From a virus, in IMG/VR virus record IMGVR_UViG_3300001041_000045, positions 1 through 31,404 of that record: a DNA stretch of 31,404 nucleotides; one strand, given 5' to 3'. Positions within the stretch are counted from its first letter, which is position 1. Each line of letters starts with the position of its first letter. The position numbers and the translations under genes are program-made. Positions 2,897-19,407 of this stretch are shown one piece after another. Below the pieces are notes generated by a model. It had not been told where the DNA came from. It saw nothing but the letters and a program-made list of their open reading frames with translations, and made no database searches.

Positions 2897-3160
2897 ATGA
2901 GTTATGAAAAAATGAAAAATGATTTAAAAATGCTTATCAAGAATAATGATGAAATTAAACAAGAATTAAAAATGTTTGAAAAATTATTTCAAAGGCAACG
3001 TATACTAATAGAACATGGACAACAAATTGATAGTATGTATGCAAAACAATTTGATTTTATGTATTCTATGCTATCACAAGAACAAAGAATTATATTACAT
3101 CAAAAATTTAGCAATGAAAATGAATTGGTATTTGTAAAATCACAATTGTATTTAAATTAA
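2897..3160 (+). CDS. Hypothetical helical protein, 87 aa
   Basis: The ATG at 2897 follows GGAGG (2885-2889) with good spacing; an in-frame TTG at 2882 lies upstream of that site and is rejected. The protein is almost wholly helical and charged (MKNDLKMLIKNNDEIKQELK, then FEKLFQRQ), a likely coiled coil in its first half. It is driven by two tandem promoters, so it is probably well expressed, and is followed by a large inverted repeat. No family is recognised. Confidence 0.55.
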   Translation: MSYEKMKNDLKMLIKNNDEIKQELKMFEKLFQRQRILIEHGQQIDSMYAKQFDFMYSMLSQEQRIILHQKFSNENELVFVKSQLYLN

Positions 3161-5206: not shown

Positions 5207-7843
5207 ATGAAAAAAGAAAATAAAAATAATAATGTTTATATTATGTCTATTGAAGGTGCAGATTTATATGAGAATATGAATAGAGAGAATTATATTATTG
5301 ATGAAAATGGTAAAATAGTCACAGAGAAAAAAGAATTACATACTTCATTTGTTGGTATGTTTCCTCATTCTTCAGAATTAGTAAAATTAAAGGAAACAGG
5401 ACTTAAAACATTTGATAGCAAAAGATATAATAAAGTAATGACAAATGATATAATAAATGTGAAATTCAGGAAAGGTATTAAATCAGGAAAAGACATAGCA
5501 AAATCAATAAAAAAGAAAAATAAAGAGGATATTAGAATTGAATTCTTCAAAAGTAAAGATGATTGGGAAAGTATTAGTATTGACGATTTAAGAGAAAAAT
5601 TATATGTAGATGGATTTGAATTAGAAATTGAAGGTAAAAAAGTAAGGTATACTGTTTACAAACGGAGTAGTGCAAAAAGTCGCACTTCTCAGGTACTTTT
5701 TATAAAGGAATCAATGAGATATGAAATGATTAAATGGGCAAGGTTAGGAATGAATTTAGATGATAGAGATGATTGTGATTTCCCTTCATTATTAGCCTAT
5801 GAAAGTTTAGTTTCTTCAAGTGTAGATTATTTTATTAAAATTAATCCTGATAATATTCTTATTGTTGATGATGTTAAATCTATATTTCCTATTGATTGTA
5901 ATGTAGTTGAGAAGGATGAAGAAGGTAAGTTAGTTAGTAATCCAGTAGATAACTATATGATGGAAAATGATATTTTTGATGGTGAAGGTTTGCTACAATT
6001 GGAATATTTTCCAGAAGGTAAAACAATGCAATTATTACGTCAACATATGGCAAAATGTTGTGCTTTTGCATGTGATATTCAAAAGTTTCTTAGAGATAAT
6101 TGTCCTGATGATATTGATTTTGACACATGGAAAATAAATAATATGTTCAATGAACCAATGTTAGCTAGTGAAATACATATGATATTAACTCCTGCATCAT
6201 TGAAAGCCTTAAAATTTTCTGATATAAAAGGTAGTAAACCTAAAATGTGGAAACATTGGAAAGAAAAAGTTAAAAAAGAAAATAATCAATTTGGTGTTGT
6301 TAAATATGATAAAGAATCAAAAAGAGGTAGAGATTATGAAGATAATATTTTACAACAGACTTCATACCAGATGCTAAACAGTATGCCTATCTCATATAGT
6401 GATATGAAAGATTTAAGTTTCTTTGAATGTGAATATGTAATGGAATTAAAAAATAATGATGATACATATATTGAATATTTAAAGCAAAATGCAAATAATA
6501 TAAATTGCAACAATATGTTAGTTGATTTATATATGAAGAATAAGAATATAGTTAATTTAGATTTATTCAAAAACAAAAGAACAAAAGATATTCATAATTA
6601 TGTAAATCACGTTAAAAAAGGTAAAATTAGACTGAATGGTGATTACTGTACAATCCTTGGAAACGGTAAGGAATTATTATATCATGCTATAAGACAACTA
6701 CCAGTTGAAAAAGGTATCCTTAATTTTAAGGAATGGGAAAGTAAAATGATATTAAAGGATAATGAAATTTATACTACATTGCATGATTTTAATTGTGAAT
6801 ATGTTGGCTTTAGAAATCCACATACTGCTCAATCTAATGTATTGATAGTGAAAAATAAGAAAGTTAAATTCATTGAAGATTATTTTGTAATGAGTGATAA
6901 TATCATTTATGTAAATTCTATAAACTTCCCTATTTGTCGAATCTTATCAGGTCAAGACCTTGATAGTGATAATTTAGTATTATTTTCCAATTGTAAATTA
7001 TTAGAATTAGCAAGAAAATGTTACATAAAAAGTGATGAATCAAATTATCGTGTTTGTGTAAATAATGTAGCTAAATCTCCTGTACCATATGCAGTAAATT
7101 CTAGTGACCATGCTAAGATTGACAATATCCTTGCAAAATCACAATTCAATATAGGCACAGTAGTTAATTTAGGAGCACTATTTTTAAGTGAGTATTGGCA
7201 TAGGATTAAAAATAAAAATAATAAAGACTTAGATAAGTTATTAAATTGTATAGATATTTGTACAATTTTGTCAGAGATATCTATAGATAGTGCTAAGAGG
7301 TTATATGATATTGATATATCAGAACAAATTAAATATTTATATGATAGTGGATTGTTACGCAAAGAAAAACCTGATTTCTTTAAATATGTATCACAAAATG
7401 AAAAAATAACTACTAAACATTATGATACAGCTATGGATTATTTGTTTGATGCAATGGATAATTTACCTGATGCAAAATGGAAAAATACTATCACTATGAA
7501 TAATAGTAAACTTTTAAAAGATGTAGATACAAGTAAAGCAAAAGATAGACAAGTAAAAGGTATTATTGAAAATGTTGTAAAAATGTCAAATTCTATTAAA
7601 GCAATTGAAGCAACATATAAACTTATGGAAAAGTATAGTAAAATAGATAAGAAAGAAAAATATAATTCTATTGATGATGTTATATCTGATGGAATGTATC
7701 AAGTAAAAAAATACAAGGTTAAAATTGAAACAGTTGTAAAAATATTGCTAAGTGATGAATTTGAAGAATGTCAAAGAAAATTAGATTTATTAAATGCTCT
7801 TTACAAAGGACACAAAGAAAACTTTTTGCAAGCATTTAAATAA
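5207..7843 (+). CDS. YonO/QDE-1-like single-subunit RNA polymerase
   Basis: 878 residues; ATG at 5207 with AAGGGATGATGAT upstream. The signature GQDLDSDN places D584, D586 and D588 in the DxDxD motif that binds catalytic magnesium in the two-barrel RNA polymerases (multisubunit beta-prime, QDE-1-type RdRPs, SP-beta YonO, crAss-like phage polymerases); the usual DxDGD has Ser for Gly here. About 320 residues earlier, DGEG (258-261) and MQLLRQHMAKCCAF (274-287, with R278 and K283) match the conserved block of the first double-psi barrel in YonO-like proteins. Between them GFRNPHT (534-540) matches the conserved R-x-P segment before the active site. The size suits a YonO-type enzyme. It follows Rep by 37 bases, apparently in one operon ending at the hairpin at 7857-7894. 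By analogy it would transcribe phage genes; priming replication is another option. Assignment is by motif, without a database search. Confidence 0.75.
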   Translation: MKKENKNNNVYIMSIEGADLYENMNRENYIIDENGKIVTEKKELHTSFVGMFPHSSELVKLKETGLKTFDSKRYNKVMTNDIINVKFRKGIKSGKDIAKSIKKKNKEDIRIEFFKSKDDWESISIDDLREKLYVDGFELEIEGKKVRYTVYKRSSAKSRTSQVLFIKESMRYEMIKWARLGMNLDDRDDCDFPSLLAYESLVSSSVDYFIKINPDNILIVDDVKSIFPIDCNVVEKDEEGKLVSNPVDNYMMENDIFDGEGLLQLEYFPEGKTMQLLRQHMAKCCAFACDIQKFLRDNCPDDIDFDTWKINNMFNEPMLASEIHMILTPASLKALKFSDIKGSKPKMWKHWKEKVKKENNQFGVVKYDKESKRGRDYEDNILQQTSYQMLNSMPISYSDMKDLSFFECEYVMELKNNDDTYIEYLKQNANNINCNNMLVDLYMKNKNIVNLDLFKNKRTKDIHNYVNHVKKGKIRLNGDYCTILGNGKELLYHAIRQLPVEKGILNFKEWESKMILKDNEIYTTLHDFNCEYVGFRNPHTAQSNVLIVKNKKVKFIEDYFVMSDNIIYVNSINFPICRILSGQDLDSDNLVLFSNCKLLELARKCYIKSDESNYRVCVNNVAKSPVPYAVNSSDHAKIDNILAKSQFNIGTVVNLGALFLSEYWHRIKNKNNKDLDKLLNCIDICTILSEISIDSAKRLYDIDISEQIKYLYDSGLLRKEKPDFFKYVSQNEKITTKHYDTAMDYLFDAMDNLPDAKWKNTITMNNSKLLKDVDTSKAKDRQVKGIIENVVKMSNSIKAIEATYKLMEKYSKIDKKEKYNSIDDVISDGMYQVKKYKVKIETVVKILLSDEFEECQRKLDLLNALYKGHKENFLQAFK

Positions 7844-8052: not shown

Positions 8053-8565
8053 ATGATTAATAAGAAAATTGAAGAATTAAAAGGTAGGAATGATTTAAAT
8101 GATAGTGAAAAGGGTTTTTTAGGTTTATTAGAAAAGTTTGTTTATTTTGATTGTGATTATGATAAAACAATTAGACATCATTTATTTAATACTTTAAAAT
8201 TTAATCCTAATGAATTTACTGAGTATGAAATAAAGGAACAAGAATTTGAGTTGAAAAAACATATTCAAAAATTGCAAGGAATTATACCAGAAAAAATAGT
8301 ATTTGATGAAGATTATTTTAAACCAGTTGAAAATAAAACTAAGAAAATAGATATGGTAAAATATTATCAAATTAAACATTATATGAATGATAAAGAATTA
8401 GAAATGTTTACAATTTTACGTGATTTTGATTTTGATTTTGAAAGGACAGTTAAATATTATTTTACTCATATGTTGAAAAAAGATTTAAATGAAATTTATC
8501 CTGGAACTATAGAAAAGTCTATTAATAAATTAAAAGAAGAATTTGATTTTTTAATAGGAGGATGA
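8053..8565 (+). CDS. Hypothetical protein with an internal duplication, 170 aa
   Basis: The ATG at 8053 follows CAGGAGGAATTTA, while upstream in-frame starts lie within the structured leader. The protein has two related units: residues about 15-71 (FDCDYDKTIRHHLFNTLK core) and about 110-164 (FDFDFERTVKYYFTHMLKK core), each followed by a charged helix, joined by a short linker. Both units are helical and acidic/aromatic, suggesting a small helical protein-binding fold that arose by duplication. It overlaps the Shine-Dalgarno region of the next gene and forms an operon with it. No known family is recognised. Confidence 0.6.
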   Translation: MINKKIEELKGRNDLNDSEKGFLGLLEKFVYFDCDYDKTIRHHLFNTLKFNPNEFTEYEIKEQEFELKKHIQKLQGIIPEKIVFDEDYFKPVENKTKKIDMVKYYQIKHYMNDKELEMFTILRDFDFDFERTVKYYFTHMLKKDLNEIYPGTIEKSINKLKEEFDFLIGG

Positions 8566-8566
8566 T

Positions 8567-8932
8567 ATGAAAATATTAGAATATTTTGGATTTGGCAAGA
8601 AGGATAAAATAATTGAAAAATTGAATCAAAAGCAAAAAGAATTAGAAGTATACATGTTAATTAACAATAATTGTATATTAGTTAATAATTATATTTTACA
8701 ATCAATGATGAAAGATAATAGTAAAATATTGGAAGAACATGATAAGATAACAGAAATTTGTATAGAAGTAAAAAATAATATTGATAAATTAGTAGTAGAA
8801 TGTCAAGAAACAAGAGAAATTAATGAAGATGAAAAATTTAACTTACAAATATTCAGAAAGAAATTAAATGGCAATATGACAGAAGAAGAAAAAGATAAAA
8901 TGATGCAGGATTATAAGGATGGTAAGTGGTGA
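8567..8932 (+). CDS. Hypothetical coiled-coil protein, 121 aa
   Basis: ATG at 8567, one base after the preceding stop; its AGGAGG lies inside the end of the upstream gene, so the two are translationally coupled. The N-terminus MKILEYFGFGKKDKIIEKLN could be a short amphipathic helix. The rest is a charged helix with heptads (about 20-70, and ETREINEDEKFNLQIFRKKL near 87-106). No recognised family. The partner gene upstream suggests the pair work together. Confidence 0.55.
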   Translation: MKILEYFGFGKKDKIIEKLNQKQKELEVYMLINNNCILVNNYILQSMMKDNSKILEEHDKITEICIEVKNNIDKLVVECQETREINEDEKFNLQIFRKKLNGNMTEEEKDKMMQDYKDGKW

Positions 8933-9274
8933 AATAAGCTAAAAATTAATTATTTTTAATTATGTCTATAAAGTATTAATATTAGTAGGTTTATAGTAGT
9001 TTTTGCTATGCGTAAAAATGCGAAATTTTAAGGCTAGATTAAGAGATAATTTTTAAAAGGTATAAGTTTAGGTAGAGATAATTTAAGTGTCTTATTTAGG
9101 CTTAAATTTGCGTTTAAAAGACCAGTGGAAAGGGTGGTTAGATTTAGCCATCCTGTAGCTGTGGAGAGGGTGGACAGATTTTGGCTAATTTAGAGGTAAA
9201 TTTTAATCAAAAGTATTGTTATTGTTAGGTTTAAGAGAGGGGGACTTTGCCGAGGAAAGGATGTGATATGAAAA
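8933..9274 (+). other. 342-base gap with a G-rich imperfect direct repeat
   Basis: No confident gene. Near 9122-9195 two related units, starting GTGGAAAGGGTGG and GTGGAGAGGGTGG, each run on into AGATTT and GGC/GCC, and are notably G-rich for this genome. GGTGGTTA and TAGCCATC can pair. A weak frame of about 40 codons beginning at an ATA behind AAAAGG (about 9058-9060) covers the repeat (VERVVRF, VERVDRF) but has no support beyond being open. Confidence 0.4.
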
Positions 9275-9442
9275 TTGTCACCTTGTGGGAATCAAGACAT
9301 AGATTGTATTGATTGTTGTGGTAGAGAAGTATGTGATTTGAGTGAATTTTATGAAGGTATAGATGTTATTGAAGAATTGAAAATAGCATTGAAAGAAACA
9401 ATGGGAATTGATATTGATGAATGGAAGAGTAGATTTGGATAG
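9275..9442 (+). CDS. Small cysteine-rich protein, 55 aa (non-ATG start)
   Basis: The frame from a TTG at 9275 encodes LSPCGNQDIDCIDCCGREVC, then an acidic helix (EFYEGIDVIEELKIALKETM) and ends at 9442. Four or five cysteines in the first 20 residues suggest metal binding. A near-perfect Shine-Dalgarno sequence (AAAGGATGTGAT, 9257-9268) precedes it. An ATG at 9268 leads into a different frame that stops after 14 codons; loss of one A from the AAAA run would join that ATG to this frame, so a sequence error or a frameshift is possible. It is probably a real small gene of unknown function. Confidence 0.45.
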   Translation: MSPCGNQDIDCIDCCGREVCDLSEFYEGIDVIEELKIALKETMGIDIDEWKSRFG

Positions 9443-9459
9443 AAAAGAAAAAATAATTG

Positions 9460-9488
9460 TTGACAACTAATTATTCAAATGTTATTAT
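9460..9488 (+). promoter_or_regulatory. Sigma-A promoter of the 54-residue gene
   Basis: TTGACA (9460-9465), 17-base spacer, TATTAT (9483-9488). TTGTTGACAA around the -35 is itself a small dyad. Confidence 0.7.
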
Positions 9489-9525
9489 TGAAATAATAAA
9501 ACTAATTGAAAAGGTGGTTGACAAT

Positions 9526-9690
9526 ATGAAAATTGAAAAAGTTAAAATTGTAGTGACAGAATGTAATTTAGAATTTTACATGAGCAAAAGAAGAGCGAAT
9601 GACATAGACAACGTATTGAGAAGAATTAGAACATATAGACCATGTGTAGACTTGCATAATATAGAAATTAAAATTAGTGAAGTATATTAA
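9526..9690 (+). CDS. Hypothetical small protein, 54 aa
   Basis: I use the ATG at 9526, behind AAAAGGTGG and downstream of a consensus promoter; an in-frame TTG at 9457 precedes the promoter and is rejected. The protein begins with two short strands (KIEKVKIVVTECNLEFYM) followed by a basic helix (SKRRANDIDNVLRRIRTY) and a final strand, a compact alpha/beta plan. It is a single-gene transcript with a strong promoter and terminator, as for small host-takeover or regulatory phage proteins. No family is recognised. Confidence 0.6.
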   Translation: MKIEKVKIVVTECNLEFYMSKRRANDIDNVLRRIRTYRPCVDLHNIEIKISEVY

Positions 9691-9691
9691 G

Positions 9692-9717
9692 CTACTCCTA
9701 AGAGTAGTTTTTTCTTT
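9692..9717 (+). terminator. Strong intrinsic terminator
   Basis: CTACTC (9692-9697), loop CTAA, GAGTAG (9702-9707), then TTTTTTCTTTTT. The stem is identical to that of the terminator at 10346-10370. Confidence 0.85.
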
Positions 9718-9761
9718 TTCTCAATCAAGAAAATAAATATAATAATCTATCAAAATATATG

Positions 9762-9790
9762 TTGACATTGTTTTAAGTATGTAGTAAGAT
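9762..9790 (+). promoter_or_regulatory. Sigma-A promoter
   Basis: TTGACA (9762-9767), 17-base spacer, TAAGAT (9785-9790), 41 bases before the ATG at 9832. Confidence 0.65.
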
Positions 9791-9831
9791 AAGATTAATA
9801 AAATAATTAATTGAGAAAAGGAGAATGAATT

Positions 9832-10194
9832 ATGAAAAATTGGTTAAATAAAAACAATCCAGAAGGTAGAATTTTTGAAGATGAAACAGTTTATTTGGTA
9901 AAAAATATTAATCTTACTGATGAAGAAGTGGTGGAAGTTGAAAAAACTTTAAAAACTGCTCTTTTCGTTGAAGAAGAAATTTCAATTATGGATGATGCTG
10001 ATATTTTAGGAATTATTAAGAATTATACTAAGAACAGTGTAGATGCAAGAATCTTAGGTATTAATGAAAATATATTTGAATATGATTTTTTTGCGGATGA
10101 TATAGTTATATTCTCTATTGAAGATATTTTAGAAGTTAGAAGAGTGCAAGATTTTCTTATAGAACGTGGCAATAGTATTACGGAGGAAAATTAA
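9832..10194 (+). CDS. Hypothetical acidic protein, 120 aa
   Basis: ATG at 9832 behind AAAAGGAGAATGAATT. It is strongly acidic (ETVYLVKNINLTDEEVVEVE, then EEEISIMDDADI) with mixed helix and strand, and ends in a charged helix (EDILEVRRVQDFLIERG). No recognised family; small acidic phage proteins often act as inhibitors or DNA mimics, but nothing here proves that. It is the first gene of a two-gene operon with its own promoter and terminator. Confidence 0.55.
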   Translation: MKNWLNKNNPEGRIFEDETVYLVKNINLTDEEVVEVEKTLKTALFVEEEISIMDDADILGIIKNYTKNSVDARILGINENIFEYDFFADDIVIFSIEDILEVRRVQDFLIERGNSITEEN

Positions 10195-10356
10195 ATGAAA
10201 CATTTAGATATGAAAAAATTTGATGTACCTTTTTTATCTCCTGAAATGATGAAAATAAAAATGCAGGTTGAAGAAATTAAATCAAATAAAAGAAGTTTTA
10301 TATTATTTTTAAGTACAAATTTAATATTATGTGGGATTTATATAGCTACTCTTTAA
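10195..10356 (+). CDS. Small single-span membrane protein, 53 aa
   Basis: The ATG at 10195 directly follows the upstream TAA and has GGAGG at 10181-10185. About 33 mostly polar residues (MKHLDMKKFDVPFLSPEMMK, then KMQVEEIKSNKR) are followed by one hydrophobic helix (SFILFLSTNLILCGIYIATL) that ends the protein, so it is a tail-anchored or single-pass membrane protein. Its stop codon lies in the loop of the terminator hairpin. The function is unknown; a superinfection-exclusion or small membrane modulator role is possible but unproven. Confidence 0.55.
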   Translation: MKHLDMKKFDVPFLSPEMMKIKMQVEEIKSNKRSFILFLSTNLILCGIYIATL

Positions 10357-10370
10357 TGAGTAGTTTTTTT
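10346..10370 (+). terminator. Strong intrinsic terminator
   Basis: CTACTC (10346-10351), loop TTTAAT, GAGTAG (10358-10363), seven T. The loop contains the stop codon of the membrane-protein gene. Confidence 0.85.
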
Positions 10371-10457
10371 ATGTGTTTTTTTTGCAAAAAGTCAATAATA
10401 TCTCATTGTAAGTATATCACAAAATATAAGAATGTCAATAGGATGGAGGAAAATAAA

Positions 10458-10916
10458 ATAAAAATTTGTTCATATGACCAAGCAACAAAAATAACAGGTT
10501 ATTCAGTATTCAATAATAAAGAATTAGTTACATTTGGTAAATTAGAAGTTAATGAAGAATTAAACTACATAAAAAGAATTAAGTTAATGAGTGAATTAAT
10601 CAAACAAAGTATCATACTACATAAACCTGAAATAGTGTTGTTTGAGGATACACAATATCAAAATAATGTTTTAACATTAAAGCAATTATGTCAACTTCAA
10701 GGTTCTATTATAAACATTCTACATGAATTTGAATTAAAATTTTTTATAATCGAACCTACTAAATGGCGAAGTGGATTAGGTATTAAAGGGCGTAAACGTA
10801 AAGAACAAAAATTTAACACTCAATTAAAAGTTAAAGAATTATATGGAATTGAAGTAAGTGAAGATGAAGCTGATGCTATTGCGTTGGCTTCTTTTTATTT
10901 GCAGAGGGAGGAATAA
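10458..10916 (+). CDS. RuvC-like Holliday junction resolvase
   Basis: 152 residues from an ATA at 10458. RuvC-fold (RNase H-like) resolvases cut Holliday junctions and branched DNA, typically to debranch concatemers before packaging. The four acidic residues are present: D7 (CSYDQATKITGYS), E63 (VLFEDTQ), D136 and D139 (SEDEADAIALA), with spacing like E. coli RuvC (D7, E66, D138, D141). A Lys/Arg-rich stretch (KGRKRKEQK, 110-118) precedes the last motif. Start choice: GGAGGA (10445-10450) is perfectly spaced for ATA, which also puts the first Asp at residue 7. The in-frame ATG at 10443 overlaps that Shine-Dalgarno sequence and has none of its own, but it cannot be excluded and adds five residues. 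The next gene starts immediately after its stop. Confidence 0.8.
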   Translation: MKICSYDQATKITGYSVFNNKELVTFGKLEVNEELNYIKRIKLMSELIKQSIILHKPEIVLFEDTQYQNNVLTLKQLCQLQGSIINILHEFELKFFIIEPTKWRSGLGIKGRKRKEQKFNTQLKVKELYGIEVSEDEADAIALASFYLQREE

Positions 10917-11438
10917 ATGAGCATACAACATAATTTTGCTGATTCGATAAAGGTAGGTAAAAAAGGTGAAAATATAGTTTATGATTGGCTAATGAGTAGA
11001 GAAAGTGTTAAAAATGTGATTGATGTGTCAGATGATAGAGATTATCAGAAAAAAGATATTGATTATATTGTACAATTTCATAAAGGGAAGAATGTCAGTA
11101 TTGAAATAAAGTGTGACACTTACTATCACACAGGAAATTTTTTCTTGGAACTTATTTCTAATGATAATAAAGGTACAGAAGGATGTTTGATTTATACTGA
11201 AGCTGATTACTTGTTTTATTTTTTTGATAAAGTTAATATTTTATATATTATTCCTGTGAAGGAGTTACAGCAATGGATTAGTGAAAATAAAGATAGTGGT
11301 AGATTTAGGAAGAAAAAATGTGGAAATTATATTAATGGTAGATATGTTTATTCTTCAGTTGGATTGTTAGTTAATAGAGATACTTTGTGTGAAGAGATAA
11401 ATGAAATGGGTGAACGTGTTTTAGTTAGAAATATATAA
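10917..11438 (+). CDS. PD-(D/E)XK nuclease-like protein, 173 aa
   Basis: ATG at 10917, directly after the resolvase stop; AGGGAGGAATAA provides the Shine-Dalgarno sequence. The pattern GKKGENIVYDWL (E18), then KKDIDYIVQF (D49), then SIEIKCD (E63-I-K65) fits the E...D...ExK active site of the restriction-endonuclease-like fold, with the usual helix-strand-strand order. The C-terminal half is less clear (IIPVKELQQWI, common in such nucleases of Bacillota phages). Sitting with a RuvC-like gene it probably processes phage or host DNA; a recombination nuclease or host-DNA degradation enzyme are both possible. Confidence 0.6.
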   Translation: MSIQHNFADSIKVGKKGENIVYDWLMSRESVKNVIDVSDDRDYQKKDIDYIVQFHKGKNVSIEIKCDTYYHTGNFFLELISNDNKGTEGCLIYTEADYLFYFFDKVNILYIIPVKELQQWISENKDSGRFRKKKCGNYINGRYVYSSVGLLVNRDTLCEEINEMGERVLVRNI

Positions 11439-11456
11439 TAGAAAGGTAATATAAAT

Positions 11457-11654
11457 ATGATTATAAGATTCATTAAGAATTTCATATGGTTTTGGAAAGA
11501 ATCATTTAGTTTTATGGAAGGATATAACAAATTATATATTACATATGGTTGTATTATAAAAGTTATACCTTTTTGCATTGAACAAGAAAAATGGTATAGG
11601 ACAGAGGATAAATTGAAGGCTTATTGTGAAATGAATAGGATTATGTATTTTTAA
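11457..11654 (+). CDS. Hypothetical small aromatic-rich protein, 65 aa
   Basis: ATG at 11457 behind GAAAGGTAATATAA. The N-terminus is hydrophobic and aromatic with basic residues (MIIRFIKNFIWFWKESFSFM) and may associate with membrane; the rest is mixed (IIKVIPFCIEQEKWYRTEDK). No recognised family. Same-strand position between two genes with a good Shine-Dalgarno sequence supports it as real, but its shortness leaves doubt. Confidence 0.45.
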   Translation: MIIRFIKNFIWFWKESFSFMEGYNKLYITYGCIIKVIPFCIEQEKWYRTEDKLKAYCEMNRIMYF

Positions 11655-11680
11655 ATTAAATAGAAAAGGGAGATATAATT

Positions 11681-12505
11681 ATGAAATATCAAACAGGATG
11701 GAAGATTAATATGTTAGAGAATAATAAACAAGCATTAGAAAAAGAAATTGAAGAGTTGAAAGCAAGATTAAATGAATATGAAAAAATTAAAAGAAAACAT
11801 GAACATAGATTATTTTGTAAAAGTTCAGAATATGTTTGTGATAATAAATTTAAAAGTTGTTCTTATGATGGTGTTATAGATTATATCATTGATGATGTTG
11901 TAAAATTTAAAGAACATAATGATATATGGGAAAAAGAATATAATAAATTGAAAGAAATTATTAGTAAGATTGACAAGAGAGTACCTATTGAAAAGGTATT
12001 AGATTTATTGGATGCTTATGAAAAGCAGAATGATGAATTAATGAAAGATAATTCAATATTAATAAAAGATAATACAAAGTTAATGGAAAAAGTTAAGCCT
12101 AATATAAGGTGTATGTTAAAAGAATTAAATGACAGTAGAAATTATAATGATATTCATATAGAAGATATTGAAGATGCTATATGTTTTCTTGGAAGAAATA
12201 ATAAATATGGTGAAGTATATGTAAGTGATAGTGTTAAAATAATCAGAAGTGTATATGAAGAGATTCAATTTAAAATACTTTTTGATAAAAAGGATATTAT
12301 TGAAACATGTGAATTAGATGAAATGCTGTACTTTTTAATGAATAATAAGAAATTTCAAATTGAGATGGATGATTTTGATTTTAGTGAGGTAATGGGATTT
12401 ATTAAAACAATTTATGATTGTAGTTTGGATGATAGAATTAAGGTTACATTTGAAAGTGATATGAGTGATATAAAAGATAATATAATATATTATAATAAAG
12501 GATAA
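11681..12505 (+). CDS. Hypothetical coiled-coil protein, 274 aa
   Basis: ATG at 11681 behind AAAAGGGAGATATAA; an internal ATG at 11711 is a less likely start. Residues about 11-45 form a coiled coil (LENNKQALEKEIEELKARLN), followed by a Cys-containing stretch (FCKSSEYVCDNKFKSCSYDG) and a second coiled region near 110-145. The last 120 residues are helical and acidic (DIHIEDIEDAICFL, SDSVKIIRSVYEEIQF). No recognised family. It ends the middle-gene group; a terminator follows. Confidence 0.5.
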   Translation: MKYQTGWKINMLENNKQALEKEIEELKARLNEYEKIKRKHEHRLFCKSSEYVCDNKFKSCSYDGVIDYIIDDVVKFKEHNDIWEKEYNKLKEIISKIDKRVPIEKVLDLLDAYEKQNDELMKDNSILIKDNTKLMEKVKPNIRCMLKELNDSRNYNDIHIEDIEDAICFLGRNNKYGEVYVSDSVKIIRSVYEEIQFKILFDKKDIIETCELDEMLYFLMNNKKFQIEMDDFDFSEVMGFIKTIYDCSLDDRIKVTFESDMSDIKDNIIYYNKG

Positions 12506-12518
12506 GAATAAAATGGAA

Positions 12519-12545
12519 GTAGGTGCTTTTTAGTGCCTACTTTTT
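12519..12545 (+). terminator. Intrinsic terminator
   Basis: GTAGGTGC (12519-12526) pairs with GTGCCTAC (12533-12540) with two G-T pairs, loop TTTTTA, then TTTTT. Confidence 0.7.
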
Positions 12546-12562
12546 ATATTGGAGGAATTATT

Positions 12563-12730
12563 ATGTATGCGTATTGTTTTAAGTGTAATATTTATGATTC
12601 TGGAGATACAGACGATTTAGATAGTTTAGTTGAATTAGTCAAGGAACATGGTGGATTATTAAGTTTTGATGATGATAGAGATAGTGTATGTCCTCGATGT
12701 GGTGAGAATAATTGTTTGAGGATTGATTAA
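12563..12730 (+). CDS. Small zinc-ribbon-like protein, 55 aa
   Basis: I use the ATG at 12563, with GGAGG at 12551-12555; a longer frame from 12533 would start inside the terminator. CFKCNIYDSGDTDD near the start and VCPRCGENNC near the end give two CxxC knuckles, so the whole protein is probably one zinc ribbon with an acidic helix between. Likely a nucleic-acid or protein-binding accessory factor. Its TAA overlaps a TAATG junction leading into the next gene. Confidence 0.6.
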   Translation: MYAYCFKCNIYDSGDTDDLDSLVELVKEHGGLLSFDDDRDSVCPRCGENNCLRID

Positions 12731-12762
12731 TGTGGAGAGAGAGAGAAGGAGAAGGTATAGAT

Positions 12763-13047
12763 ATGTGTGAAGATGAATTAAAGTATTTTAATGAAACTAA
12801 ATCAAGAGATAAATTTATTGATAATTATAGTATTGAAGAAACAAAAGTTAAATTTTTAAAAAGTACATATATTAAAGGTGATATATTGAAGATTACAAGA
12901 ACAGATGAAGCTATATGTATTAAAAATAAAGATAATAATGGTGTATATACTATTATAAGAAGTTTTGGAAGTATTGAAGCACAAGAAATATTCAAAGATG
13001 ATTTAGTTATTTTAATAGGTAATTTATCGGAAGAGGATGAAGAATAA
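12763..13047 (+). CDS. Hypothetical protein, 94 aa
   Basis: I prefer the ATG at 12763, preceded by AAGGAGAAGG. An ATG at 12730 in the same frame overlaps the upstream stop and has GAGG upstream, but the residues it would add (WREREGEGID) look like translated Shine-Dalgarno sequence. The centre (KGDILKITRTDEAICIKNKD, then GVYTIIRSFGS) reads as a small beta-barrel, SH3-like in rhythm, between a helical N-terminus and an acidic tail. No recognised family. Confidence 0.5.
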   Translation: MCEDELKYFNETKSRDKFIDNYSIEETKVKFLKSTYIKGDILKITRTDEAICIKNKDNNGVYTIIRSFGSIEAQEIFKDDLVILIGNLSEEDEE

Positions 13048-13048
13048 T

Positions 13049-13231
13049 ATGTGTGATGCGTTAAGTGGAATTGTTTATCAATTATTTGATGAAGTTAAAA
13101 AGTTAAAGGATAAAGTTAGTGAGTTAGAAAATGAAGTAGTTGATTTAAAGGATAGTATGGAAGTATTGGAAAATGATGCTTATGGTTGGTTTATGGTGAA
13201 TAGGATTGATAAAGTGGAGGTAAGTGAATAA
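13049..13231 (+). CDS. Hypothetical coiled-coil protein, 60 aa
   Basis: I use the ATG at 13049, one base after the upstream stop, with AGAGGATGAAGAA upstream; the ATG at 13037 overlaps the previous gene. Residues about 8-48 are an ideal heptad coiled coil (LFDEVKKLKDKVSELENEVV and on), so it is probably an oligomeric small protein. It is the last gene before the regulatory gap and the packaging genes. Function unknown. Confidence 0.5.
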   Translation: MCDALSGIVYQLFDEVKKLKDKVSELENEVVDLKDSMEVLENDAYGWFMVNRIDKVEVSE

Positions 13232-13240
13232 ATTTATCAT

Positions 13241-13373
13241 ACTACATATATGGTAGTTTGACGTTAAAATAGGGTAAATGTTAGGTAAAAATTAGGGGAA
13301 AAGTGTATCATTTTGATACAGTATTTTAACACTTTACTATGCTAAAGGATATGTAGTATTGAATACTATGTGA
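13241..13373. promoter_or_regulatory. Cluster of dyads upstream of the small terminase (candidate operators)
   Basis: Three inverted repeats: ACTAC-ATATATG-GTAGT (13241-13257); TGTATCA-TTT-TGATACA (13304-13320), of which part can instead pair AAAGTGT (13300-13306) with ACACTTT (13329-13335); and TAGTATT-G-AATACTA (13354-13368). Perfect 7-bp half-sites are typical of dimeric repressor operators. No clear sigma-A promoter is seen. Confidence 0.5.
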
Positions 13374-13458
13374 TGTAGAAATTAATGCTAAGTAATTGAT
13401 ATGTAAGGGTTTTGTAAGTGTTTGATATTTGTTTGGTATTTTGAAAGTAGGTGAAAGG

Positions 13459-13905
13459 ATGGGAAAGTTAACTGTAACAGACGGTGAAAATGTGACTCCT
13501 GCTGAGTTACGTTTATTGAAAGTTTTACAAAATCCTGATAATTTTGGAAAAACTCACACAGAAAAGGCAAAATTGGCAGATGTTAGTAGAACTTATTACT
13601 ATGAAATGATTAGAAAACCAAGATTTATGGAAGTTATGAAAAATACTGTTAATGATTTACTATGTGATGAATTGTTTCCTATTATAGATTCATTAAAAAA
13701 GAAGGCTAAAGAAGGTAGTTACAATCATCAAAAGTTATATTTTGAAATGATTGGTTTGTATTCACAGAAGAAAGATATTAATGTTAATGTGAATAACGGT
13801 ATTGAGAAGCATTTAAAAGAACATCAAGAATATAAAGAATATATGGCAAGTATGGGCGAAGTAGTTGAAGATATTGAATACTTTGTTAATGATGAAGATG
13901 ATTAA
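13459..13905 (+). CDS. terS: Terminase small subunit
   Basis: 148 residues. I use the ATG at 13459 (AGGTGAAAGG upstream); the frame is open from an in-frame TTG at 13429. The N-terminal half (TPAELRLLKVLQNPDNFGKT, then HTEKAKLADVSRTYYYEMIR) is a helix-turn-helix of the phBC6A51-type small terminases, followed by a helical oligomerisation region and an acidic tail. TerS binds the packaging site and hands DNA to the large subunit. It precedes the large terminase, from which it is separated by a 583-base non-coding stretch that probably contains its binding site. Flanking copies of AATACTATGTGA lie on both sides of the gene. Confidence 0.7.
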   Translation: MGKLTVTDGENVTPAELRLLKVLQNPDNFGKTHTEKAKLADVSRTYYYEMIRKPRFMEVMKNTVNDLLCDELFPIIDSLKKKAKEGSYNHQKLYFEMIGLYSQKKDINVNVNNGIEKHLKEHQEYKEYMASMGEVVEDIEYFVNDEDD

Positions 13906-14231
13906 GTTTGAATAAAATTTTCGTTTTATCATGTTATTCTATCTATAGAAATACTATGTGAATTTCGCTGAGATAATAGTATTTATATAATTGTTAGCAT
14001 AAGTTCCGAATAATACAGCGTAAATTATATTATAAACCTTGTACCATTGATTCTATAAGGGTTTGTTGGTAGTTCTCTAGTTTACATAATATTTATTATC
14101 GGAAGTTCCGTATATAATTAGTTTCGCTTATAATTGAACGGGTAAGTTTATAGTTACATAAGGCTAGGGTTGTGAATACACATTGTACTTTCATAGCTAA
14201 TACTTGGACACTTGAACACCCAAAGTATGTT

Positions 14232-14353
14232 AAAATTGTGTGATAAATGTTAATGAAAATTGTGGAAAGTTAGTAAAATTGTGGTAAAATTACGTTGTTT
14301 CGTTATTACGGAATTACGTTATAACGGAAGGGGGTATCCCCAAACGTACCCCC
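14232..14353. other. Candidate cos/pac packaging site
   Basis: Direct repeats of AAAATTGTG(G), then paired 13-mers CGTTATTACGGAA/CGTTATAACGGAA 16 bases apart (the second containing the palindrome CGTTATAACG), then GGGGGTA (14330-14336) and TACCCCC (14347-14353) forming a 7-bp GC stem, with GGGG-TAT-CCCC as an alternative. 30 of the 60 bases at 14301-14360 are G or C, far above the surroundings. Repeated terminase-binding sites beside a GC-rich cut site match the general plan of cos regions. Inference. Confidence 0.4.
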
Positions 14354-14401
14354 ACACCCACAAATATAATATATGGCTATCAGAGTACATATATAAAATT
14401 G

Positions 14402-14418
14402 CCAATATACTCTAAACC
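14402..14418 (-). promoter_or_regulatory. Conserved intergenic motif, minus-strand copy
   Basis: Read on the minus strand this region contains AATGGTTTAGAGTATAT, almost the same as the plus-strand copy at 7912-7928 and related to GGTTTAGAGCATG at 2583-2595. All three are intergenic. Function unknown. Confidence 0.4.
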
Positions 14419-14488
14419 ATTGATTTTACTATGTTTTTAACACTAAGTGTAATGTCAAATAATCAATATATAAACAGGAGTTGCTATA

Positions 14489-14629
14489 ATGTCTAGTAAA
14501 ATTGACAAATTATTAAATGAATTAAACTATTCAATAACAAGCAAACATACAACTAAAAAACAACGTAAAGCAAAGCAACGTGAATATCTCTTAGAAGAGA
14601 AAAGAAAAAGAGGTGAACATATAAAATAA
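14489..14629 (+). CDS. Small basic protein upstream of the large terminase, 46 aa
   Basis: ATG at 14489 with AGGAG eight bases upstream. It is very basic in its second half (KKQRKAKQREYLLEEKRKRG), so probably nucleic-acid binding, or simply a short coupling ORF. Its TAA (14627-14629) overlaps the ATA (14626-14628) that I take as the terminase start, in the way ATGA junctions couple genes. Its last codons (AGA GGT GAA) provide that start's Shine-Dalgarno sequence. A ribosomal frameshift fusing it to the terminase is an alternative. Confidence 0.5.
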   Translation: MSSKIDKLLNELNYSITSKHTTKKQRKAKQREYLLEEKRKRGEHIK

Positions 14630-16350
14630 CTATTAAAAAATCAGAGCAACACAAGTTAAAAATAACTAAATCAGAGCAAAAAAAAGGTTTAACTGAAGCA
14701 GATATTATACAAAAATCATTAACTGAATTCCCTTTTTATGCTTATAAAAATTTAAAAATACGCACTAAAGAAGGTGAATTAAAAAAATTTAAACTAAATT
14801 CAATTCAAATTAAATTAGATAAAATAATTGAAAAACAACGTAGTTTAAATAAACCAGTTAGATTAGTAATCCTTAAAGCTAGACAAGAGGGCGCTTCAAC
14901 ATATACAGAAGGTAAATTATTTCATTTAACTTCAACACAGGAAAACATTAATACAACAATTATAGCACACTTAGAAGAATCCACAACTAACTTATTTAAT
15001 ATGTCTAAATTGTTTTTAGATGAATTACCTGATGAAATGCGTCCTATGGTTAAATCAAATAATTCACAACAATTAATATTTGAAAATCCAACAAAAGAAG
15101 TAAAAGAGAAACAAGAAAATCCAGGTTTACGTTCTAAAATGAGAATGATTACAGCTAAAGGTTCTGGTGCAGGACGTTCAAATACTATTCACTATTTACA
15201 CGTATCTGAATTAGCTTTTATGCCTTCACCAAAAGAAACAATGTTAGGATTATTACAATCAGTACCATATTCTAAAAATTCAATAATTATCGTTGAATCT
15301 ACTGCAAATGGTATAGGTGATTATTTTTATGAATTATATACTAATGCCAAAAAAGGATTAAATGATTTTATACCTTTATTTTTTGCATGGTTTGAACACA
15401 AAGATTATCAAATGGAATTAGATGAAGGTGAAGTATTAAAATTAACTGATGAAGAAATTGAGCTTCAAAAAGCATATAATTTATCTCCTGAACAATTAAA
15501 ATGGCGTAGATGGTGTATTAAGAATAATTGTAATGGTGATGAAGAAAAGTTTAAACAAGAATATCCATCAAATGATAATGAAGCATTTTTATCATCTGGT
15601 AGACCTGTTTTTAATCATAATAAATGTGAATATTACAAAAATAATAAATGTAAAAATCCTTTAAAAAAAGGTAATATAATTGAAGTAAATAAAAGAGTAC
15701 AATTTAATTCTAGTAAAAAAGGTTATCTATCTATATGGGAATTTCCTATTGATGGACAAGAATACATAATATCTGTAGATACTGCTGAAGGTTTAAAACA
15801 TGGTGACTATTCATGTGCAGATGTTTTAAATAGGAAAAACAAAGAACAAGTTGCACAATTTCATGGACATATTGACCCTGACTTATTTGCTAAAGAAATT
15901 GAAATGTTAGCAAGATTTTACAATCGTGCATTAGTTGTTCCAGAATTAAATAATACTTCTGGTGGTAGTTTCTTATCCTCACTTAAACCAATTTATAAAA
16001 ACATCTATAAACGAAAAGAAAATGTTGATAGCGTAAGCAATAAAACTATTCAAGAATATGGTTGGCGTACTATGCAAAACAATAGAAAATTAATTATTGA
16101 TAATCTTATTCGTATGTTTAGAGATGATTTAATAAAAATAAATTGCAAAGAAACAATAGAAGAATTTATTACTTTTGTCTATGATGATAAAGGTAAACCA
16201 CAAGCACAATCTCTAAAACATGATGATAGAGTGCTATCGCTGGCTATATGTGCTTATGTTGATTCACAAAAATACTATAATCCAGATGAAGCAAATGAAA
16301 TAGATGATTATGAAGAATATAGACCAGTTAATTCAAGGACAGGCTATTAG
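14626..16350 (+). CDS. terL: Terminase large subunit (ATPase-nuclease), apparent ATA start
   Basis: 574 residues. The packaging motor cuts and pumps DNA into the procapsid. Walker A: LKARQEGAST with K84; Walker B: YLHVSELAF with S194-E195; coupling motif STANG (225-229). The RNase H-like nuclease has D385 (SVDTAEG), E440 (VVPELN) and D533/D534 (KHDDRV). The first ATG in frame is at 15001, which would delete Walker A; no ATG, GTG, TTG or CTG lies in frame between the stop at 14614-14616 and 15000. The ATA at 14626 has AGAGGTGA (14609-14616) nine bases upstream and overlaps the preceding stop, so I take it as the start. The ATT at 14632 is an alternative, as is a -1 frameshift from the 46-residue ORF. 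Confidence 0.85.
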   Translation: MTIKKSEQHKLKITKSEQKKGLTEADIIQKSLTEFPFYAYKNLKIRTKEGELKKFKLNSIQIKLDKIIEKQRSLNKPVRLVILKARQEGASTYTEGKLFHLTSTQENINTTIIAHLEESTTNLFNMSKLFLDELPDEMRPMVKSNNSQQLIFENPTKEVKEKQENPGLRSKMRMITAKGSGAGRSNTIHYLHVSELAFMPSPKETMLGLLQSVPYSKNSIIIVESTANGIGDYFYELYTNAKKGLNDFIPLFFAWFEHKDYQMELDEGEVLKLTDEEIELQKAYNLSPEQLKWRRWCIKNNCNGDEEKFKQEYPSNDNEAFLSSGRPVFNHNKCEYYKNNKCKNPLKKGNIIEVNKRVQFNSSKKGYLSIWEFPIDGQEYIISVDTAEGLKHGDYSCADVLNRKNKEQVAQFHGHIDPDLFAKEIEMLARFYNRALVVPELNNTSGGSFLSSLKPIYKNIYKRKENVDSVSNKTIQEYGWRTMQNNRKLIIDNLIRMFRDDLIKINCKETIEEFITFVYDDKGKPQAQSLKHDDRVLSLAICAYVDSQKYYNPDEANEIDDYEEYRPVNSRTGY

Positions 16351-16366
16351 AAGGGAGGTTTAAATC

Positions 16367-18262
16367 ATAGCAAAACCTAATCAAAAAAATTTAAATAAAT
16401 ATATGAATAGAATTATATTATCAGAACAAAATGTAGTTAATAATTACAAAGATAAATGGGAAAGATTCTATCAAATGTATAATAACTATGTTGATGCTAT
16501 TATTGACCCTGCAACACAAAAACAAATAACAACTACTAGCAATATTTCTATTCCGTATGCTTATATTCAAGTAGCGACAATTTTGCCGAGGTTAGTAGAA
16601 ACATTATTTTCTGCAAGACCTTATATCACAGTGAAGGATAGGGAAGTTAACGACTACAATTTTGCAACAAATAATCAAGTTTTATTAGATTATCAAATGA
16701 ATGAGCGAATGAATTTACGTTCTAAGTTTGCAGAAGGATTAAAAACTTTATGTATATATGGAACAACTATCGCTTATACAGGATGGAAGTATGATACAAG
16801 AAATATAATTAAAAAACAATTAGTTGATATTATTGATGAAGAAACTAATCAGCCATTTGTTGATGAAGTTACTAGACAACCAATTCAAAGATATCAACCT
16901 GTTAAAACTAAAGAAATTCTATATGATGACCCTGATGTATATTTTGTTGATTTGTTAAATTTCTTTGTAGACCCATATGCAGAAGATATTGATACAGCAA
17001 GATGGTGTGGACATATCACATATGAAACAAAATCAGAAATACAAAAGAAACATGATAGTGAAATATATGTTGTTGATTGGAAAAAAATAACTTCTTCTAA
17101 TTCATATAATAAACCTAAACAAGAAAGAATGGCATCTATAGGAATTGCTATAAATAATTCTTCTCCAAATTCTGAAGATGATTTATATGAAGTTATTCAC
17201 TATTGGGAAGATAATAGACATGTAATTATTATTGAAAGAAGTTATATAGCAAAAGATGAAGAAAATCCATACTGGCATAAAAAGAAACCATATGATATGT
17301 CAAGATATGACTCAATCCCAGGTGAATTTTATGGCAAAGGTGTTATGGATAGAATTGAACCTTTAATTGATGAATTAAACACATATAGAAATATGCGAAT
17401 TGACTATGCTGCTATGTCAAATCGTAGAATGTTTAAATATAAAAAAGGTTCAGGTATAAGTAAAAAAGATTTGACATGGCGTCCAAATGGTTTAATTCCT
17501 GTAAATGAGATGGATGATATAGAAGAAATTGGCGTTCAAAATGTATCACCTCAAATGTTTAATCAAGAAGAAACGGTGAAACAGGATATCATGGATGCAA
17601 CCGGGGCTCAATCAGTGATAATGGGAACATCTTCCAGAGATACAGCAACAGGTACAATGACTAAAGATTCAAATGCTTCAATTAGATTTAAAGAAATTAT
17701 TACTTCTATTGAAAAAGATTTACTAGTTAATATTGCTAGAAAGATGATGCAATTAAATCAACAATTTTTAGATACTGAAAGAGTATTAAGAATTTCTAAT
17801 ATTAAAGGTGATGATTGGGTAAATATTAATCCAGACGAAATACAAGGGGAATTTGATTGTATTGCAATGGGTTCAAGTGTAGAACCATTAGCTAATAAAG
17901 AAGCATATAAACAAAGATTATTGCAATTATATCAAATATCTAATACAGACCCAATATTCCAAGCATTTCCTGAAAAGAAATTATATTTAATGAAACTTAT
18001 TTTCCAAGCATTTGATATGCAAAATATTGAAGAATTAATTCCCACAGAAGAAGAAGTAAAAGCAAAACAAATGCAACAAGTACCAGTACCACCTAATGAA
18101 CAAACTTTACCTGAAAATACTTTACCTCAAAATGATATGCAATTACCACCAGATTTAATGAATCAATTAATGGGTATGCAAAATACTGAAAACTTTTCAG
18201 CAAATGCAAGTGGTGGATTAAATCGTTCAATTATGGAAGGACAAGGTTTATTACCTGAATAG
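16367..18262 (+). CDS. Portal protein
   Basis: 631 residues from an ATA at 16367, which has GGGAGG (16353-16358) at ideal distance; the first in-frame ATG (16403) has no Shine-Dalgarno sequence and would lose 12 residues (AKPNQKNLNKYM). The portal forms the dodecameric ring at the capsid vertex through which DNA enters. The pattern of N-terminal helices, a beta-rich wing (VYFVDLLNFFVDPYAEDIDT), then GEFYGKGVMDRIEPLIDELN, and the crown helix region GTMTKDSNASIRFKEIITSI matches podovirus (P22/T7-type) portals of Bacillota and other bacteria. The C-terminus is Pro/Gln/Asn-rich. It directly follows the large terminase and precedes the head genes. Confidence 0.8.
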   Translation: MAKPNQKNLNKYMNRIILSEQNVVNNYKDKWERFYQMYNNYVDAIIDPATQKQITTTSNISIPYAYIQVATILPRLVETLFSARPYITVKDREVNDYNFATNNQVLLDYQMNERMNLRSKFAEGLKTLCIYGTTIAYTGWKYDTRNIIKKQLVDIIDEETNQPFVDEVTRQPIQRYQPVKTKEILYDDPDVYFVDLLNFFVDPYAEDIDTARWCGHITYETKSEIQKKHDSEIYVVDWKKITSSNSYNKPKQERMASIGIAINNSSPNSEDDLYEVIHYWEDNRHVIIIERSYIAKDEENPYWHKKKPYDMSRYDSIPGEFYGKGVMDRIEPLIDELNTYRNMRIDYAAMSNRRMFKYKKGSGISKKDLTWRPNGLIPVNEMDDIEEIGVQNVSPQMFNQEETVKQDIMDATGAQSVIMGTSSRDTATGTMTKDSNASIRFKEIITSIEKDLLVNIARKMMQLNQQFLDTERVLRISNIKGDDWVNINPDEIQGEFDCIAMGSSVEPLANKEAYKQRLLQLYQISNTDPIFQAFPEKKLYLMKLIFQAFDMQNIEELIPTEEEVKAKQMQQVPVPPNEQTLPENTLPQNDMQLPPDLMNQLMGMQNTENFSANASGGLNRSIMEGQGLLPE

Positions 18263-18277
18263 GAATGGAGTAATTAT

Positions 18278-18493
18278 ATGGAATATAGTAAAGAAGATAG
18301 ATATAATATTTCCAATATGCTTGAAAATGATGGATGGAAGTTAATGGAAGCATATATTAATCAGATGAAAGATTATTATATGAATGAATTAGCTACATGT
18401 AAATTAGAAAATATAATATTTAATCGTGCAAAACTTGAAGCATATAAAAGTATTATAGAACAAATTAATTTTATTTTAGATTCTGAAGATTAA
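18278..18493 (+). CDS. Small head protein between portal and scaffold, 71 aa
   Basis: ATG at 18278 behind GGAATGGAG. It is all helical (ISNMLENDGWKLMEAYINQM, then DYYMNELATCKLENIIFN and a final helix KLEAYKSIIEQINFIL). Small helical proteins with a GWK-type motif are often found between portal and scaffold genes in related phages. The role is unknown, perhaps head assembly or a portal accessory. It is co-transcribed with its neighbours. Confidence 0.55.
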   Translation: MEYSKEDRYNISNMLENDGWKLMEAYINQMKDYYMNELATCKLENIIFNRAKLEAYKSIIEQINFILDSED

Positions 18494-18536
18494 CTACATA
18501 GTTAATATATATAAAAAATAATAGGAGGTTTATATT

Positions 18537-19370
18537 ATGAGTTTTTTAGGATTAGGAGAACCTATAACCGATGTTACTACTTCCCCTACTGGACAAGAAG
18601 TATTTAGTGACATGGCAGGTGATTCTCAATCTAGTGTAAATGAGGAAGTTGAAGTAGAAGTTAATAATGACCAACAATTTCAAGATGATGAAACTGGTCA
18701 GGAAGAACAAGATAATTCTACTGAAGAGGAAGTAGAAGTAGAAGATAATTCTACTACTAATGAAAAATTAGCTGGTAAATTTAAAAGTGTTGATGATTTA
18801 GTTAAAGGTTATAAAAATCTTGAAAAAGCATTTCATCAATCAAGACAACCACAACAACAAAATAATAGTCAACAACAACAACCAGTTAAATCACAACAAG
18901 AAGTATCAGATGCTATTTTTCAAGCTATGACTGAAGACCCTGCATCTGTAATTCAATATTTTGTACAACAGGCTTTAGCACCAATTCAACAAGAAAAAGC
19001 AGACATGCAATTGCAAAATAATTTACAAGAATTATCTAAAGATTATTCTGAAATTTCTGATGAAAAAGGTTTAGCTGATATGTTTATTAAGGCAAAAGAA
19101 ATTGCTTTTGAATTAGGTAATCCTAATTTATCAGAATCTAAACGTATATTAAAAATGGCTTGCCAAGAATTATATCCTAAGTCAACATCTAAACTTGTAA
19201 AACAAGTAAAGAATGAAACACAAAAAGAAATACTTGAAAATATGAAAAGTAAGCAAAGTGTAAATACAAATAACAATATGAAACAATCAAAACAGAATAA
19301 TGGTAGTAAAACACCAGAAGAATTGATTATTGAAGGAATATTCAATGCTGGTAGAAAAAATATATTTTAA
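18537..19370 (+). CDS. Capsid scaffolding protein
   Basis: 277 residues; ATG at 18537 behind AGGAGG. The N-terminal 75 residues are highly acidic and repetitive (EEVEVEVNN, EEEVEVEDN). Then comes the block KLAGKFKSVDDLVKGYKNLE, a common signature of podovirus scaffolds, a Gln-rich linker, a helical middle and a basic C-terminus (KQNNGSKTPEELIIEGIFNA) that would bind the capsid protein. Scaffolds direct procapsid assembly and leave before packaging. The position directly before the major capsid gene supports this. Confidence 0.75.
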   Translation: MSFLGLGEPITDVTTSPTGQEVFSDMAGDSQSSVNEEVEVEVNNDQQFQDDETGQEEQDNSTEEEVEVEDNSTTNEKLAGKFKSVDDLVKGYKNLEKAFHQSRQPQQQNNSQQQQPVKSQQEVSDAIFQAMTEDPASVIQYFVQQALAPIQQEKADMQLQNNLQELSKDYSEISDEKGLADMFIKAKEIAFELGNPNLSESKRILKMACQELYPKSTSKLVKQVKNETQKEILENMKSKQSVNTNNNMKQSKQNNGSKTPEELIIEGIFNAGRKNIF

Positions 19371-19407
19371 AAATAAAAAATAAAAATTATAGGGGGAATA
19401 TTTAAAC

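Follow-up and report, generated by a model that had tools for sequence, protein, structure and literature searches.

The window (the whole 31,404-nucleotide stretch of DNA analysed here) covers the greater part of a circularising phage genome approximately 39.3 kb long, with a GC content of 27%. Contig IMGVR_UViG_3300025011_000093, whose ends overlap by 138 bp, aligns with essentially the whole of the window. The middle of the window encodes a small terminase, a 46-codon ORF, a large terminase, an SU10-like portal and an SU10-like major capsid protein; the large terminase, the portal and the start-site features discussed below all lie on the plus strand. The small terminase is separated from the 46-codon ORF by a region (13906-14488; 583 bases, 29% GC) without obvious genes, which holds inverted repeats (13944-13989) and a palindrome (14314-14329) and is possibly a packaging or regulatory site.

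A DNA-level search among annotated phages did not find a relative of the window. Relatives compared below include two loci whose DNA is about 93% identical to the window (L002 and L003) and a third (L100) whose terminase is about 65% identical at the protein level. Identity to L003 across 8360-19401 is sharply mosaic, reaching 99.6% over 8360-12090 and 100% over the portal stretch at about 16350-17750, with the intervening terminase region ranging from 72 to 99%. This pattern indicates recent recombination between co-occurring phages. An 878-aa protein (5207-7843) belongs to PHROG 8308 (E 1.7e-166) and weakly resembles a protein of a Thomasclavelia phage whose annotation is RNA-dependent RNA polymerase. 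Given this resemblance, and the distant relatives of the portal found in Clostridia MAGs, the host is likely to be a low-GC Gram-positive bacterium.

The reading frame of the large terminase (14617-16350) opens after an in-frame TGA (14614-14616), and its first ATG does not occur until 15001. As the preliminary description had stated, with coordinates that all proved correct, the 128 codons that follow the TGA include no ATG, GTG, TTG or CTG. Start-like codons make up 3.7% of the codons in the genes of this phage, such that an absence of this length has a probability of about 0.008, and 194 of 4950 overlapping 128-codon stretches inside its genes (3.9%) likewise lack them. The absence of standard starts is by itself unusual but not decisive, since it would be expected by chance about 1-4% of the time in this phage.

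What lies upstream of the ATG at 15001 is clearly part of the protein. The full-length product (14626-16350, 574 aa) matches PHROG terminase families and T4 gp17 structures, with the match to the gp17 ATPase domain spanning profile positions 27-266 and taking in the segment before 15001. A search of the window's record with Pfam Terminase_6N gave no match because the terminase is divergent. The Walker A motif does fall before the first ATG, as had been claimed: a conserved but deviant segment, LKARQEGAST, is encoded at 14872-14901, and columns L86, K87, A88, R89, Q90, G92, S94 and T95 of our alignment A1 are invariant. The interval 14626-15000 is under purifying selection (dN 0.17, dS 0.51 versus L003). 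Locus L046 holds, just upstream of position 3001, a further terminase homologue in which no standard start precedes the Walker A region. Close to the opening of its frame an ATG occurs in a different frame (CATGGAAAC), so that either a frameshift introduced by assembly or genuine frameshifting is possible.

The candidate start codon is an ATA at 14626-14628. It overlaps the stop codon of the Lys/Arg-rich 46-codon ORF (14489-14629, with its TAA at 14627-14629) in the arrangement ATAA, and is preceded at a distance of 9 nt by the Shine-Dalgarno (SD) sequence AGAGGTGA (14609-14616), whose predicted duplex has a free energy of -13.3 kcal/mol. The ATA, its overlap with the stop codon and the sequence nine bases upstream were noted in the preliminary description, which proposed comparing homologues for an ATG at the same position. 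That comparison proved informative, as L002, L003 and L100 have ATG-ACT-ATT-AAA in place of the window's ATA-ACT-ATT-AAA. We favour the ATA start because relatives carry ATG at the same codon and because the segment that follows is under purifying selection. With the SD appropriately placed and the ORF conserved, we consider the proposal of a non-standard terminase start supported.

The same ATA is present in loci from two other metagenome samples (L001 and L004), which are identical to the window in this region. It is not kept beyond this one lineage, known from one series of metagenome samples, as both L003 and L100 have ATG. By parsimony, the ATA probably arose by a change from ATG in the window's lineage. 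The SD is about 17 nt from the start codon in L003 (duplex -7.6 kcal/mol) and is also distant in L100 (-3.8 kcal/mol), whereas an 8-nt deletion in the window relative to L003 brings it to 9 nt. The SD is thus well placed where the start is weak and badly placed where it is strong, which in this single example looks like compensation.

The portal, encoded by the next gene downstream, exhibits the same start anomaly, which the preliminary description had not mentioned and which makes the case stronger than the terminase start could on its own. The full-length portal (16367-18262, 631 aa) matches PF23899 SU10_portal (E 3.9e-35). Its start region follows an in-frame TAA at 16361 and reads ATA-GCA-AAA from the proposed start codon (16367-16369), which is preceded at 7 nt by an extended SD, AGAAGGGAGGT (16349-16359). 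Of 38 start sites examined across the window, this one has the strongest predicted duplex (-17.1 kcal/mol). The homologous codon is TTG, in the context TTG-GCx-AAR, in three portals that are 48-50% identical (L012, L013 and L101), and ATG in a fourth that is 41% identical (L018). The residues AK..KNLNKY, encoded between 16367 and the first ATG at 16403, are conserved in the three TTG-initiated portals. In L100, whose portal is 67% identical (dS about 0.9), the arrangement is AGAAGGGAGGT-N7-ATA-GCA, with the ATA placed by an SD-anchored reading and a run of 67 codons free of standard starts. The portal ATA of L002 and L003 lies in DNA identical to the window, and so L100 alone provides independent conservation. 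Its retention of both SD and ATA argues that the portal start is older than the terminase start and has been kept.

At both start sites the SD is strong or extended and lies 5-9 nt from the ATA, in agreement with the class of AUA-initiated bacterial genes with extended SDs, and both ATA codons occupy the position of the relatives' standard start. Conservation of the non-standard start in relatives was found for the portal (in L100) and not for the terminase. More generally, the SDs of non-ATG starts are stronger than those of ATG starts (5 versus 31, one-sided p 0.005). RNA structure at the two starts was unremarkable, and no Rfam family was found.

From the position of the two codons, homology, SD placement and conservation, we infer that translation very probably begins genuinely at AUA at both 14626 and 16367, rescued by the SDs and yielding low expression of virion proteins needed in few copies. 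The 30S subunit would select each AUA through a strong SD duplex at proper spacing, and initiator fMet-tRNA would decode AUA through a third-position mismatch, giving a Met-initiated, full-length protein at a reduced rate. In the case of the terminase, ribosomes that have translated the 46-codon ORF, whose stop codon overlaps the AUA, probably reach the start by termination-reinitiation. A virion requires about 12 portal subunits and few terminase subunits, compared with hundreds of capsid proteins. The likely benefit of AUA initiation is therefore one of stoichiometry, in that weak starts would hold terminase and portal low within a shared transcript, and the AUA start probably keeps these few-copy proteins scarce.

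Four other explanations must be weighed. The best of them, which we nonetheless regard as improbable, is a -1 ribosomal frameshift from AAA at 14624-14626 to 14623-14625 that would fuse the 46-codon ORF to the terminase (...RGEHIK-ITIKKSEQ...). At dnaX-type sites, re-pairing, a stop codon in the A site and an upstream SD-like sequence can favour slippage. At the terminase start, the tRNA could re-pair with AAA after the slip, and both an A-site stop and an SD-like sequence upstream are present. However, the XXXYYYZ heptamer is absent, and L003 has a separate ATG, with its own 42-codon version of the upstream ORF ending independently just past, and overlapping, that codon. No counterpart of the upstream ORF was found in L100, and a conserved 0-frame ORF leading into a slippery site is thus missing. 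Moreover, the portal has no such ORF, and its start would be left unexplained.

Initiation at the first standard starts, ATG 15001 for the terminase and ATG 16403 for the portal, with the upstream parts untranslated, is less plausible again. Neither codon is preceded by an SD. The former (15001-15003; duplex +0.2 kcal/mol), which we judge not to be the start, lies inside the ATPase domain, and its use would remove the conserved ATPase core despite purifying selection on the upstream segment. Use of the latter would likewise remove conserved residues of the portal, and this ATG has no counterpart in L100.

It is very unlikely that the ATA is an ATG misread in sequencing or assembly. The terminase codon does differ from those of the relatives by a single G-to-A difference at 14628, yet the ATA is identical in the window and in the L001 and L004 assemblies, the start region differs from L003 by the 8-nt deletion as well, and the portal ATA is present in every relative of the clade, including L100. 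Finally, we reject as scarcely credible an altered code in which the phage or its host reads ATA as Met and the two neighbouring ATA codons are ordinary starts, because homologues at internal ATA codons have Ile (42%) or Val (18%) and only rarely Met (4%), much like ATT and ATC codons (Met 4-6.5%, compared with 30% at ATG), and because the other tallied genes begin with ATG or TTG, which together point to the standard genetic code.

AUA is a very rare start codon, and initiation at it is already established in bacteria. In Staphylococcus aureus, infC, ccpN and citZ have AUA starts with Ribo-Ret evidence and, in infC and ccpN, extended SDs; reporters for ccpN and citZ gave approximately 10-30% of the AUG level, and the ccpN AUA start is conserved also in Bacillus subtilis (PMC13009471). 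The phage genes share with these examples the AUA start, a properly spaced extended SD (as in infC and ccpN), a reduced output (predicted for the phage genes) and conservation of the odd start. They differ in that the S. aureus genes are cellular regulatory or metabolic genes whose AUA starts are experimentally proven, whereas those described here are two adjacent phage DNA-packaging genes whose AUA starts are proposed from comparison. For Escherichia coli, initiation at AUA is put at no more than about 1% of the AUG level (Hecht et al. 2017, cited in PMC12864459), and in a host of that kind the output from AUA might be too little.

The portal belongs to the SU10-like/P22-like family and the terminase is T4 gp17-like, and nearly all members of these groups that we compared have standard starts (ATG, TTG or GTG). 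Among the compared portal and terminase relatives, the ATA start is limited to the window's own clade. A search of openly accessible literature did not find a report of AUA starts in phage structural genes. What is new is the proposed use of AUA starts in adjacent phage packaging genes, with conservation in the portal.

We also scanned IMG/VR for GAAGGGAGGT-N7-ATAGCA. Beyond the window's clade, the matches included two tape-measure genes (L111, TMP_3; L114, PhageMin_Tail) and a DUF6329 gene (L110); in all three, no standard start intervenes from the stop codon to the ATA. Counted as distinct sites, the result for SD-ATA was 5 of 9, versus 0 of 10 for control codons (ACA, AGA and AAA; p 0.011). 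With the window's own clade removed it became a borderline 3 of 7 versus 0 of 10 (p 0.051). Recurrence of SD-ATA starts in phages is thus suggestive, not proven.

A homologue of the L111 gene is present in a cultured isolate, Anoxybacillus phage A403, where ATA-GCG is preceded by an SD with a duplex of -19.2 kcal/mol (NC_048701.1 position 9972, complement; L146:1489). The RefSeq start of this tape measure CDS (YP_009837543.1) is an ATG located 46 codons later than the ATA. The expectation, raised originally for the terminase, that automatic annotation would truncate such proteins is therefore borne out in an analogous isolate. The homologous start is ATG in the tape measures of Enterococcus phage EH-TP1 and Lactococcus phage PLg-TB25. 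Like the genes in the window, the A403, L111 and L114 tape measures are virion genes with strong SDs (-16.9 to -19.2 kcal/mol) in which ATA, followed by GCA or GCG, is reached without any standard start after the stop codon. They differ in that the gene is a tape measure and the phages are unrelated.

It is possible, but in our estimation doubtful, that phages of low-GC Gram-positive bacteria recurrently use AUA behind an extended SD as a selected means of setting virion stoichiometry (portal, terminase and tape measure), one that is systematically hidden from gene callers and perhaps sensitive, as ccpN is, to host IF3 or nutrient state. An open-ended scan of all compared loci (2.2 Mb on both strands, 752 long ORFs) found convincing ATA starts only in the portals and L111, which argues that the device is rare and no general phage habit.

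If AUA initiation at these genes is genuine, gene callers limited to ATG, GTG and TTG will clip essential phage proteins, here at the cost of the ATPase of the terminase and the N-terminus of the portal. The portal would represent a case in which a start codon has stayed weak over long evolution with an unusually strong SD throughout, and it offers a natural experiment on whether virion stoichiometry is tuned through the strength of start codons. With the A403 isolate, AUA initiation becomes testable in a cultured phage.

One further element belongs to the portion of the genome that the window does not cover (L092:1-2663, minus strand). This region encodes a 689-aa protein with the P-loop GMQGAGKSEY, adjoins a gene for a small membrane protein, and is oriented opposite to the phage genes. 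Comparison with Pfam yielded no confident family for the 689-aa protein, which looks like a putative conjugation or T4SS-type ATPase.
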